NCBI RefSeq assembly: GCF_004323735.1 | Contig: NZ_CP036455.1 | Coordinates: 2,537,101-2,601,100, forward strand | Length of the DNA stretch: 64,000 nucleotides | Direction of reading: 5' to 3' | Source: Streptomonospora litoralis | Lineage (GTDB): Bacteria > Actinomycetota > Actinomycetes > Streptosporangiales > Streptosporangiaceae | Part shown: positions 18,697 to 27,199 of the stretch, in pieces | How positions within the stretch are numbered: the stretch's first letter is position 1 | Layout: each line of letters starts with the position of its first letter | Notes under the pieces: model-generated | Told to the model about the DNA's origin: nothing | Databases searched by the model: none | Seen by the model: only the letters and a program-made list of their open reading frames with translations | Made by a program: the position numbers and the translations under genes

Positions 18697-18829
18697 TCAC
18701 ATGCGTTATTAAGCTAGGCCCCGGTGTTATCCGCTGCGGCGCGGGAAGCCTCCGATACCGTCTGACGGGCAGTGCCGTCCGCGGGCTGCGCCCGCCATCA
18801 GCCACCCGGACTTCGAGGACAGTGGTCCC

Positions 18830-24713: not shown

Positions 24714-25174
24714 GTTCGGCGTGGCTGCCGTCGGCGGGACCTCAGGCCGGCACGGCGGCTGCAGCGGTCCGCCGACAAACGATGGACCGGCCGCACCCGG
24801 CGCGGACCTCTGCTGCGGTGCTACTCCCCGCGGCCGTCGTCGACGCGGCCGGGCGGCGGCGAGGGACGTCGGCGCGTGCGGCCGTGCCTGGTCCGCCCCC
24901 GGCGGGTCGCGGCTCGCGCCCGACCGGCGGATACTGTCGGTGCCCCGACTCCGCCTCGCCGCGGGCTCCTCCGGGGCCGCCCCAGCCTGATCCCCGCGGC
25001 TCGGATTCGCGTTTCGGCAGATGAGCGCGTTGTCCGCAGCGTCCCGGCGAATCGTTCGCGATTTCCGGGTGATTTTTTGTTGTCTGCGGGTTCGGACGCC
25101 GTCTCCAGAAGTGGAGCGGGACACAGGGCCGCAGTCGCCCCGCGTCCGCACAAGCCACCGAAGGGAAACCGCCG

Positions 25175-27199
25175 ATGAGTCACGAGCCCCAGGCCGGGCC
25201 GGACGTCTCGCTGGTGGCCGCCGCGCGGCGCGGCGACCCCCAGGCGGTCGAAGGGCTGCTCGCGCAGTCGCTGCCGCTCGTCTACAACATCGTCGGCCGC
25301 GCCCTGGCGGGCCATAGCGACGTGGACGACGTGGTGCAGGAGAGCCTGCTGTGCATCGTGCGCGGGCTGGAGCAGCTGGAGCGGCCGGAGTCGTACCGAT
25401 CGTGGATGGTGGCCGTTACCGTGCGGCAGGTGCGCGACTGGATCCGCGTCCAGCAGCGGACGCGACAGCGGCTCCAGCCACTGCCGGAGGCCGAGCAGCT
25501 GCCCGACGACTCCGACTTCGCGTCGCTGACCATCCTGCGGCTCAACCTGAGCGACCAGCGCCGCGAGGTCGCCGAGGCCACCCGCTGGCTGGAGGCCGAC
25601 GACCGCGAACTGCTGTCCCTGTGGTGGCTGGAGGAGACGGGCCGGCTCGAACGCGCCGAGCTGGCCGCCGCCCTCGGGCTGTCCGAGCGGCACGCCGCCA
25701 TGCGGGTGCGCCGCCTCAAGGATCGGATCGAGGTGGGCCGCGGCATCGTGCGCGCGCTGGCGGCCCGACCGCCGTGTCCGGACCTGGAGCGCGATACCCG
25801 CGGCTGGGACGGCGTTCCCGGCCCGCTGTGGCGCAAGCGGCTGGCGCGCCACGTGCGCGACTGCGCCGCCTGCGGCCGGAGCGGCGGCCGCGCCGGTCGG
25901 CTCGCGCCGGTGGAAGGACTGCTGCGCGGCCTGCCGCTCATCACCCCGCCCCCCGCTCTCCACCAGGCCCTCGCCGAGGCCGCCCGCGCCGCCACCCCGC
26001 ACGCTGCGGCCGGGGCGGCCGGAGGCGAGGCGCCGGCCGGCCCGCAGGATCCGCCTCCGACGCCCGCAGACGGCGTGCCGAGCGGATCCGGGCCGGCCGG
26101 CAGCGCGCACGGTGCCGCCCTGCCCTCGCGGCGCCGTGCGCTTTCGTCGGGGCACCGCCGGTCGCGCCCGCCCGCCGCCCGGAGGAACGCCCTGGCCGCC
26201 ACGGGGGCGGGGGCGGTCGCCATGGGAGTCCTGGCCGCGGTCGCCGTCGCGGGCGGCGGACCCTCGGCTCCGCAGGCGAACGCCCCCGCCCCGGGCCCCC
26301 TCGCGGCTCAGGCGTCCCCGGCTGAGGACGACCGCCCCGCCCCCTCGCCGTCCGCGTCGCCGAGCCCGGCGCCCGCGGCCTCGTCCGCGGCGCCCTCGCC
26401 ATCGGCGGCGGCTCCGCCGTCCGCGACCGCCGCCGTCCCCGAACCGGAGGCGGCCCCGGACGCCGCCTCCTCCGGCAGGGGCGTCGGGGTCTGGGAGTTC
26501 GACGGTGACGACGCGGCGCTGCGGCGCTCGGGGGCCGACTGGTACTACACCTGGGCCACCGGGCATCCGGGCGTGGCCGCCCCCGCCGGCACCGAGTTCG
26601 TGCCTATGATCTGGGGCGCCGAGTCCGTCACCCCCCGGGCCCTGGCCGAAGCGGAGGCCGCCGGTCCCTACCTGCTCGGTTTCAACGAACCGGACATGAC
26701 CGGCCAGGCCGACATGGGCGTCGAAAAGGCGCTTTCCCTGTGGCCCCGGTTGGAGGAGACGGGCAGCACGCTGGGGAGTCCGGCTGTGGCCTACGGCGCC
26801 GATACCGAGGGCGGATGGCTCGAGCGGTTCATGGACGGCGTCGAGCAGCGCGGCTACCGCGTGGACTTCATCGCCGTGCACTGGTACGGCGCCGACTTCC
26901 GCACCGGTCCGGCCGTCGACCAGCTGCGCCAATACCTCACAGCGGTGCACCGGAAGTACGGCAAGCCGATCTGGCTCACCGAGTACGCGCTGATCGACTT
27001 CTCCCAGGGCACGCGCTATCCCGCGCCGAGCGAGCAGGCCGCCTTCGTCACCGCCTCCGCCGAGATGCTGGCGGAGCTGCCCTTCGTCCGGCGCCACGCC
27101 TGGTTCGGCCTGGGCACCGGCGAGTCGGGGCCGACCACTGCGCTGTTCCGCGGCTCCAGCCCGACACAGATGGGCCGCGCCTTCCTGGCAGCCGGCTGA
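25175..27199 (+). CDS. Single-polypeptide ECF sigma factor with zinc anti-sigma motif, membrane helix and extracellular GH128-like domain
   Basis: 674 residues, five parts in order. Sigma region 2 at about 15-95 (LVYNIVGRALAGHSDVDDVV, SYRSWMVAVTVRQVRDWIRV). Sigma region 4 at about 140-195 (LSLWWLEETGRLERAELAAA, LGLSERHAAMRVRRLKDRI). A zinc anti-sigma-type motif, Cys near 202 then H226-x3-C230-x2-C233. One membrane helix at about 339-362 (ALAATGAGAVAMGVLAAVAV) after a basic stretch. A Pro/Ala/Ser linker (about 370-430) as would span a cell wall. A C-terminal GH128-type domain (about 435-674) with the expected acid/base Glu505 in GFNEPD and nucleophile Glu603 in WLTEYAL. GH128 enzymes cleave beta-1,3-glucan. 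The layout suggests a glucan sensor that holds and releases its own sigma domain. Start is preceded by GAAGGGAAA. No separate anti-sigma gene is adjacent. Confidence 0.9.
   Translation: MSHEPQAGPDVSLVAAARRGDPQAVEGLLAQSLPLVYNIVGRALAGHSDVDDVVQESLLCIVRGLEQLERPESYRSWMVAVTVRQVRDWIRVQQRTRQRLQPLPEAEQLPDDSDFASLTILRLNLSDQRREVAEATRWLEADDRELLSLWWLEETGRLERAELAAALGLSERHAAMRVRRLKDRIEVGRGIVRALAARPPCPDLERDTRGWDGVPGPLWRKRLARHVRDCAACGRSGGRAGRLAPVEGLLRGLPLITPPPALHQALAEAARAATPHAAAGAAGGEAPAGPQDPPPTPADGVPSGSGPAGSAHGAALPSRRRALSSGHRRSRPPAARRNALAATGAGAVAMGVLAAVAVAGGGPSAPQANAPAPGPLAAQASPAEDDRPAPSPSASPSPAPAASSAAPSPSAAAPPSATAAVPEPEAAPDAASSGRGVGVWEFDGDDAALRRSGADWYYTWATGHPGVAAPAGTEFVPMIWGAESVTPRALAEAEAAGPYLLGFNEPDMTGQADMGVEKALSLWPRLEETGSTLGSPAVAYGADTEGGWLERFMDGVEQRGYRVDFIAVHWYGADFRTGPAVDQLRQYLTAVHRKYGKPIWLTEYALIDFSQGTRYPAPSEQAAFVTASAEMLAELPFVRRHAWFGLGTGESGPTTALFRGSSPTQMGRAFLAAG

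Follow-up and report, generated by a model that had tools for sequence, protein, structure and literature searches.

What does an extracytoplasmic function (ECF) sigma factor sense, and which genes does it switch on, when it is joined in one polypeptide to an external glycoside hydrolase (GH) domain? The question is raised by a gene at positions 25175-27199 of a 64,000-nucleotide stretch of the Streptomonospora litoralis genome (contig NZ_CP036455.1, positions 2,537,101 to 2,601,100; hereafter the window), which encodes an ECF sigma factor fused through a zinc anti-sigma-like domain and a predicted membrane helix to a GH128 domain. PMC10766802, which cites Huang 2015 and Pinto 2019, describes predicted GH catalytic and carbohydrate-binding domains in some ECF52 and ECF53 proteins, with no experimental validation. 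To that extent the GH-bearing ECF fusion architecture is already predicted in print, and the window gene is another member. New here are the promoter, the predicted target set, the adjacency of thaumatin genes and the exchange of the external head, which together lead us to regard the protein as probably a one-protein transmembrane switch responding to β-1,3-glucan. The promoter, target set and head exchange were not found in the literature searched, which was mostly without subscription papers and without the 2021 ECF classification. ECF classification papers list predicted group promoters, and the motif may be known there.

A sigma factor, a zinc domain and a GH128 domain in one frame

The original prediction, made from the sequence alone, read the gene as one uninterrupted 674-codon frame encoding sigma regions 2 and 4, a zinc motif, a membrane helix, a spacer and a GH128-type domain, in that order. 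Translation of the plus strand yielded a single open frame with no internal stop and a 674-aa product, and domain models, the motif and hydropathy agree on the order of the parts (Table 1; protein numbering is that of the 674-aa product, and positions are window coordinates). The sigma part scores 58 bits against TIGR02937 (sigma70-ECF, cut-off 42.9) over residues 24-186 and has regions 2 and 4 only, which places it among the ECF sigma factors; for region 4, Pfam gave only a sub-threshold helix-turn-helix match. By Foldseek the sigma part resembles the SigE chain of the SigE-RseA complex (1or7_A, E 4.3e-5).

The C-terminal part matches Glyco_hydro_cc/GH128 (PF11790, E 1.1e-46, residues 450-670) in Pfam and the Amycolatopsis mediterranei endo-β-1,3-glucanase AmGH128_I (6uaq) with an E-value of 5.7e-82 over residues 429-674. 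Its fold superimposes on 6uaq with a TM-score of 0.97 by target and 57% identity (Foldseek), and the fold together with both catalytic glutamates, Glu505 and Glu603 as proposed originally, assigns the domain to GH128 subgroup I.

An AlphaFold model built with a 46-row alignment has a mean predicted local distance difference test (pLDDT) score of 76 and is confident for sigma regions 2 and 4, the start of the zinc domain (~191-230) and residues 433-674. Across residues 274-432 the pLDDT is mostly below 50, so the membrane helix rests on hydropathy and charge. Segment 340-358 has a Kyte-Doolittle mean of 2.04, with eight positive charges in the preceding 25 residues and none in the following 25. 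A hydrophobic segment past residue 265 with a mean of at least 1.6 is found in all 46 intact fusions, and positive charges are more numerous before than after it in 39, tied in five and fewer in two. The hydrophobic segment of the original prediction is thereby upheld, and hydropathy and charge support a predicted N-in/C-out orientation.

H226, C230 and C233 are as first described, and C201, which had been overlooked, extends the motif to C201-x24-H226-x3-C230-x2-C233, that is, H-x3-C-x2-C plus an upstream fourth ligand. Judged by its invariance, C201 likely completes the zinc site. The family model PF13490 (zf-HC2) matches just one of the 46 fusions.

Conservation of the fusion and exchange of its head

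Relatives were obtained from one scan of genome contigs, from which the best 80 of 426 confirmed relatives were taken, so that all counts are lower bounds. All 80 loci are titled actinobacterial. They include at least 45 further intact sigma-zinc-GH128 fusions, 45-61% identical to the window protein, from two metagenome-assembled genomes and 15 named genera: Streptomyces, Actinacidiphila, Micromonospora, Actinoplanes, Paractinoplanes, Asanoa, Hamadaea, Planotetraspora, Acrocarpospora, Streptosporangium, Sphaerisporangium, Planomonospora, Trebonia, Actinospica and Lentzea. C201, H226, C230, C233, E505 and E603 are invariant in all 46 intact copies, window included, and the four zinc ligands also in a 68-row alignment of the zinc domain. 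The survey of homologs thus bore out the retention of both catalytic glutamates and the occurrence of the parts as fusions rather than solely as separate proteins.

The 46-copy alignment holds intact fusions; three split copies (loci L023, L033 and L041) and two cut at a contig end with the head not seen (L036 and L045) stand outside it and were added to the promoter and neighbor counts, making 51 in all. In the split copies the sigma and GH parts lie in different frames, owing to natural frameshifts or to assembly errors in GC-rich DNA. These three are what could be said for the window fusion being a misassembly or a chance open frame, an explanation already refuted by conservation, given the other 45 intact copies and the conservation of their promoter; we give it practically no credence.

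A further 22 intact proteins carry the sigma and zinc parts with another head: CAP in 14, AbfB in five and no identified type in three. Because of these relatives the sigma-zinc chassis is, at the level of sequence, modular, with the sensor head exchanged among paralogs. Several of the CAP (PR-1-type) headed fusions, of which L047:7986-9575 and L256:3098-4879 are examples, have the same promoter form before their own gene. At the AbfB-type loci L048, L051 and L060, a divergent secreted gene has a near-match site, CGTTATG-N16-GTCTCC; opposite the AbfB-headed L048:7995-9551 this gene (L048:6151-7590, minus strand) itself ends in an AbfB domain. This one examined locus hints that head and target share a domain type in AbfB loci.

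In a tree of GH128 domains, eight enzyme copies nest among the sensor domains in two places, and a separate clade of sensor domains was therefore rejected. The tree placed AmGH128_I beside a Lentzea sensor domain (97/70). The idea that this enzyme was cut out of a fusion was not upheld: across 80 genomes of Lentzea's family, the ten sequences closest to it are all standalone frames of 272-329 codons with 71-77% identity.

A promoter shared by the fusion genes and their neighbors

An expectation-maximization (EM) two-block search of 47 of the 51 upstream regions (four near-copies were dropped), in which the motif was learnt from sigma promoters alone, found TGTTRTC-N16/17-GTCTCC. This motif or a close form precedes 44 of the 46 intact fusions, and 49 of 51 when the split and cut copies are counted; the fusions of L015 and L056 lack it upstream. 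The window copy, TGTTGTC-N16-GTCTCC at 25078-25106, ends 68 bases before the ATG. Since nearly all intact fusions (44 of 46), that of the window among them, have the motif upstream, the fusion likely activates its own gene. The search for promoters sharing the gene's own -35 and -10 elements, suggested with the original prediction, thus returned a specific promoter at the fusion, and the same form was found before glycanase genes of relatives.

The strict pattern YGTWRTC-N16/17-GTCTCC has 65 matches in the 1.29 Mb of the 80 loci and window, whereas four first-order Markov replicates average 1.0. The next gene encodes a GH128-type sigma in 37 cases, another or truncated sigma in nine, a thaumatin in seven, a DUF1996 protein in four, a secreted GH128 protein in three and an AbfB-lyase in one; the remaining four have no called start within 400 bases, and two of these (L023, L033) precede split fusions. 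With a position weight matrix (PWM) score of at least 8, sites lie upstream of 47 of 49 GH128-type and 19 of 31 other-type sigma genes.

Of 50 fusion loci, 14 have thaumatin genes next to the fusion, 18 genes in total, whereas 29 other loci have none (p 0.0014, with loci within one genus not independent); the comparison loci comprise 22 with another head, five cut by a contig end and one ending early (head not known in these six), and one near-copy. Five of the 18 were identified by Pfam PF00314 (E ~1e-59 to 1e-63) and the others by similarity; that of L041 is a fragment, and in Hamadaea two thaumatin genes with overlapping ends follow the fusion. Among solved structures, one of the thaumatins is closest to thaumatin-like proteins (3zs3, E 2e-40); zeamatin and osmotin are also among its matches. 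A PS00316-like thaumatin signature is strict in eight of 25 sequences, the remaining 17 being one fragment and 16 variants. In Streptosporangiaceae the fusion's neighbors include secreted F5/8C-GH128 and F5/8C-DUF1996 proteins.

Sites scoring at least 8 precede 13 of the 18 thaumatin genes (seven strict, five GTCACC and one GGTAATC) and four of five DUF1996 genes (all strict), against nine of 1013 other neighbors (Fisher p 2e-20 and 8e-8, respectively); five of these nine stand by AbfB-type fusions or fusions without an identified head. Of the six members of the cluster of secreted GH128 neighbors, two have a site; three members are the downstream parts of split fusions, and another, in L015, has its site 354 bases upstream.

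Sites elsewhere in the genomes of relatives

In 19 fusion genomes the strict pattern, own promoters included, gave 114 matches against six for the reversed pattern. We examined 40 places with 41 sites outside the known loci: all 25 whose YGTTRTC -35 element is followed by an additional C, and 15 chosen from those without it. These took in every one of the 15 YGTTATC sites beyond the known loci; this form lay between genes in 14 of the 15, preceding GH16, GH64, GH128, three DUF1996, thaumatin, CBM2 and two alginate-lyase-like protein genes, and otherwise a sigma paralog, a phosphoesterase, a frame of 65 aa and the gene for a secreted 700-aa protein. The forms YGTTGTC and YGTAGTC were dropped as reliable, as 22 of the 26 examined fall inside genes.

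After this first set the pattern was narrowed to YGTTATC-N16/17-GTCTCC and run on 27 further fusion genomes, where it gave 38 matches in 22 genomes against two for the reversed pattern; the motif had been trained on the fusion promoters of these genomes, not on their distant targets. Fifteen matches lay in loci already read, and all other 23 were examined: 22 are intergenic and one lies within the last bases of the preceding gene. Behind them are thaumatin (six), GH128 enzyme (four), GH16 (two) and DUF1996 (one) genes, a GH128-sigma fusion, two each of sigma paralogs, alginate-lyase-like genes, homologs of the 700-aa protein and BTAD regulators, and a galactokinase-like gene at 303 bases. Identities in this set are mostly by similarity; those in L244, L245, L248, L256, L262 and L266 are by Pfam. 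By a hand tally, one or more genes for a glucanase, a thaumatin or a DUF1996 protein stand beside the fusion or follow a site in 30 of the 46 genomes (11/19 and 19/27); L004 and L041 count by adjacency, with no site. In relatives, then, the promoter stands both at the fusion's own gene and at other genes, as in a regulon with a shared promoter.

A proposed glucan switch and its alternatives

The fusion, its conservation, the promoter and the genes behind it were computed directly, and from them we infer the ligand, holding in cis, proteolysis and output. Inside the cell, the sigma part would be restrained by the zinc domain of the same chain, in the manner of class I anti-sigma domains, a step suggested by the motif. 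The single membrane helix would join this part to the external GH128 domain, which would meet β-1,3-glucan from a fungal or plant wall or another source; glucan is the candidate ligand because the domain is 57% identical to an endo-β-1,3-glucanase of solved structure and because of the target set. Contact with glucan would free the sigma part, probably through stepwise proteolysis, by likeness to ECF52/53 and RsgI proteins, and the freed sigma would read YGTTRTC-N16/17-GTCTCC promoters. Its first target would be its own gene, so that the switch would amplify itself and place more glucanase on the surface; further targets in many relatives would include secreted β-1,3-glucanases (GH128, GH16, GH64), thaumatin-like and DUF1996 proteins. 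By analogy such a set may be coherent, because plant thaumatin-like proteins are described as able to bind and hydrolyze fungal β-1,3-glucan (PMC8949454). The head may need only to bind or may have to cut as well; the catalytic glutamates never vary in the 46 fusions.

If this is right, actinomycetes have a one-protein β-1,3-glucan response that runs glucanases and thaumatin-like proteins, with a bearing on bacteria-fungus contacts and biocontrol. A concrete promoter, predicted target set and candidate ligand make what is sensed and what is switched on testable for one kind of these sigma factors, and exchange of the head may point the way to other polysaccharide sensors. A possible, more tentative extension is that the system serves actinomycetes in fungus surveillance: a sigma factor with a surface glucanase would detect fungal wall glucan and induce a secreted set like the pathogenesis-related (PR) proteins of plants, with CAP (PR-1-like) or arabinose-polymer-binding heads in paralogs and a one-gene, self-amplifying regulon in S. 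litoralis. In that analogy the thaumatin-like proteins would correspond to PR-5 and the glucanases to PR-2-like proteins.

Several results weigh against a glucan switch with secreted targets. In the 5.81-Mb genome of S. litoralis the only strict site is the fusion's own promoter. Allowing one mismatch gave 48 sites with a 16-bp spacer (strict included) and 13 with a 17-bp spacer, against 8 and 6 for the reversed pattern; among 59 distinct one-mismatch sites, 17 are intergenic and none precedes a recognizable secreted glycanase. The fusion is this genome's sole PF11790 gene, and a PF00314 search of the genome gave no match, although control genomes gave none either, so that absence is not proven. 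Thus the claim that the sigma factor switches on glycanase genes is indicated only for relatives with the same promoter before secreted glycanases. Because that gene is the only clear target there, sensor and effector may be one protein in this organism. In the hand tally, no target encoding a glucanase, a thaumatin or a DUF1996 protein was seen in 16 of the 46 fusion genomes, and in the first set 23 of 41 sites lie inside genes and 18 are intergenic, so the reversed pattern understates chance matches in coding DNA. Of 80 genomes of Lentzea's family, 18 hold this GH128; none of 15 standalone GH128 genes has a site, including the five that occur alongside a fusion in four of the genomes, and the eight fusions have one strict site, four an ATCTCC variant and three neither. 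The -10 element seems to have drifted in this family, and GH128 enzymes are, by their upstream sequences, not always controlled by the fusion sigma. The promoter is also shared by CAP- or AbfB-headed paralogs (the 19 of 31 other-type sigma genes), so that a site does not prove which sigma factor reads it, and cross-reading between paralogous sigmas is possible. The zinc-domain profile finds the anti-sigma DdvA as best PDB match, weakly (E 0.61, Cys and His aligned), and the fold search suggested for both domains, which succeeded for GH128, gave no match for the isolated zinc-domain model (mean pLDDT 74).

Within the glucan-switch reading, the head might be a decoy that binds and hardly cuts, its glutamates serving binding only. 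The RsgI6-GH10 sensor, which is reported to bind with very low catalytic activity (PMC4711584), is a precedent, but the close match to the solved enzyme AmGH128_I and the two positions at which GH128 enzymes nest among sensors in the tree make this variant, which does not contradict the switch, somewhat unlikely. The GH128 domain could instead be mere payload: envelope stress, protease activity or the medium would act on the zinc domain or linker, and the sigma factor would then make more of an anchored glucanase. Retention of both glutamates in 46 of 46 copies fits this, as do the lone GH128 gene and lone strict site in the window's genome. It accounts poorly for the same promoter before other secreted glucanases and thaumatins in relatives, and for the exchange of heads in paralogs; the AbfB-headed L048, beside an AbfB-ending gene with a near-match site, better fits a substrate sensor, and we consider the payload explanation unlikely. 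A little less likely still is that the protein senses self-made glucan or a developmental change of the wall (aerial hyphae, spores, sporangia), its secreted proteins remodeling the cell's own surface. Actinomycetes of this kind are not generally known to make β-1,3-glucan. In favor of a developmental role, SCO4117, an ECF52 protein built along similar lines, governs development and antibiotic production (PMC5826349). The target set of GH128, GH16, GH64 and thaumatin-like proteins points instead to β-1,3-glucan, and no developmental gene was recognized next to the sites examined, although no test was aimed at such genes.

Comparison with known systems

The window protein shares with ECF52 and ECF53 an ECF sigma factor, zinc finger, membrane segment, proline-rich stretch and external carbohydrate-related domain (PMC10766802, PMC8999054, PMC5826349). 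The match is to the feature list of these actinobacterial groups, which allows one or two membrane segments (PMC8999054, PMC5826349), and the protein could be ECF52, ECF53 or of another group. A proteolytic cascade has been proposed for ECF52/53 (PMC8999054, PMC5826349). SCO4117, the characterized ECF52 of Streptomyces coelicolor, has a carbohydrate-binding module where the window fusion has GH128, and its proposed motif, CSGYN-17-SRHA, differs from the promoter described here; the predicted targets, secreted glucanases and thaumatin-like proteins, also set window-type fusions apart from ECF52/ECF53.

SigI6/RsgI6 of Clostridium thermocellum likewise combines an external GH polysaccharide sensor, self-activation and a regulon of enzymes related to the sensor domain; it differs in being two separate proteins, with a SigI that is not an ECF sigma but resembles one in part, and with a GH10 sensor reported to be nearly inactive (PMC4711584). 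RsgI signaling in C. thermocellum proceeds by autocleavage, then RseP and ClpXP (PMC12203970). With one chain and an ECF-type sigma, the fusion is not a SigI/RsgI biosensor, although it would work alike. AmGH128_I has the same fold and both catalytic glutamates, but its nearest relatives are standalone whereas the window GH128 is anchored to a sigma factor. IutY of Pseudomonas putida is not known to have a GH domain. IutY unites sigma and anti-sigma in one chain, like the window protein, and is activated through proteolysis (PMC8999054), as would be the case here; its signal is the iron carrier aerobactin.

Feature coordinates and further observations

Table 1. Positions of the fusion gene, its predicted promoter and its encoded domains in the window.
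Feature	Residues	Window positions	Strand	Evidence or remark
Sigma-zinc domain-membrane segment-GH128 fusion gene		25175..27199	+	674 codons plus stop
Predicted autoregulatory ECF promoter		25078..25106	+	-35 TGTTGTC 25078-25084, 16-bp spacer, -10 GTCTCC 25101-25106; EM motif search, fusion upstream regions
Shine-Dalgarno-like GAAGGGA		25160..25166	+	Sequence; ATG 8 bases on
Sigma-70 region 2	30-96	25262..25462	+	PF04542 (Sigma70_r2), E 3.6e-10, over cut-off
Sigma region 4 helix-turn-helix	~143-182	25601..25720	+	Inside TIGR02937 24-186; helices in model
Zinc anti-sigma-like domain	201-262	25775..25960	+	Four ligands invariant
Zinc ligands	C201, H226, C230, C233	25775-25777, 25850-25852, 25862-25864, 25871-25873	+	Invariant in 46/46 and 68-row alignment
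Single hydrophobic membrane segment (predicted)	340-358	26192..26248	+	Hydropathy, charge asymmetry; no helix in model
Pro/Ala/Ser-rich external linker	359-432	26249..26470	+	~25% Pro; pLDDT mostly <50
GH128 subgroup-I domain	433-674	26471..27196	+	Pfam, 6uaq match, both Glu, TM-score 0.97
Catalytic Glu	Glu505, Glu603	26687-26689, 26981-26983	+	GH128 domain of fusion

The GH106 gene noted in the original prediction is divergent from the fusion across 740 bp, as described. It was rejected as a target: no promoter site lies upstream of it, and no GH106 relatives recur beside fusions in the neighbor comparison of loci. At L036:4943-7699 (minus strand), a divergent alpha-L-rhamnosidase (PF17389, not GH106) without a site stands next to a sigma gene whose head is cut off; a rhamnosidase next to a sigma fusion is thus seen in these two cases only. 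Elsewhere in the window, TGTTATC-N16-GCCTCC at 18725-18753 lies 76 bases before a DeoR gene, followed by a major facilitator superfamily transporter, beside sugar-phosphate genes. With its one mismatch the site is probably due to chance, and the DeoR gene is a doubtful second target in this genome.

DUF305 genes are found repeatedly close to the fusion in Micromonospora and in Streptosporangiaceae (L005:3519-4064, L007:9866-10534, L015:9141-9764 and others). No site scoring at least 8 was found before any of 12 DUF305 or four ferric reductase neighbors, and in Micromonospora the DUF305 genes are possibly co-transcribed with the fusion.

Alginate-lyase-like proteins behind the promoter are found in L082:4796-6415, L128 and L149 (PF05426) and, by similarity, in L258 and L259; that of L082 bears AbfB and directly follows a sigma fusion without an identified head type. 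The family of ~700-aa proteins stands behind a site in L150:1853-3955, L257:3029-5140 and L260; in L150 and L257 a perfect site lies just 5 to 6 bases ahead of the called start, which may be wrong. Large BTAD-type regulators, L245:3-2921 (by Pfam) and L247:2-2905 (through its like sequence), lie behind TGTTATC-N16-GTCTCC in Paractinoplanes/Actinoplanes and might provide a second tier of control.

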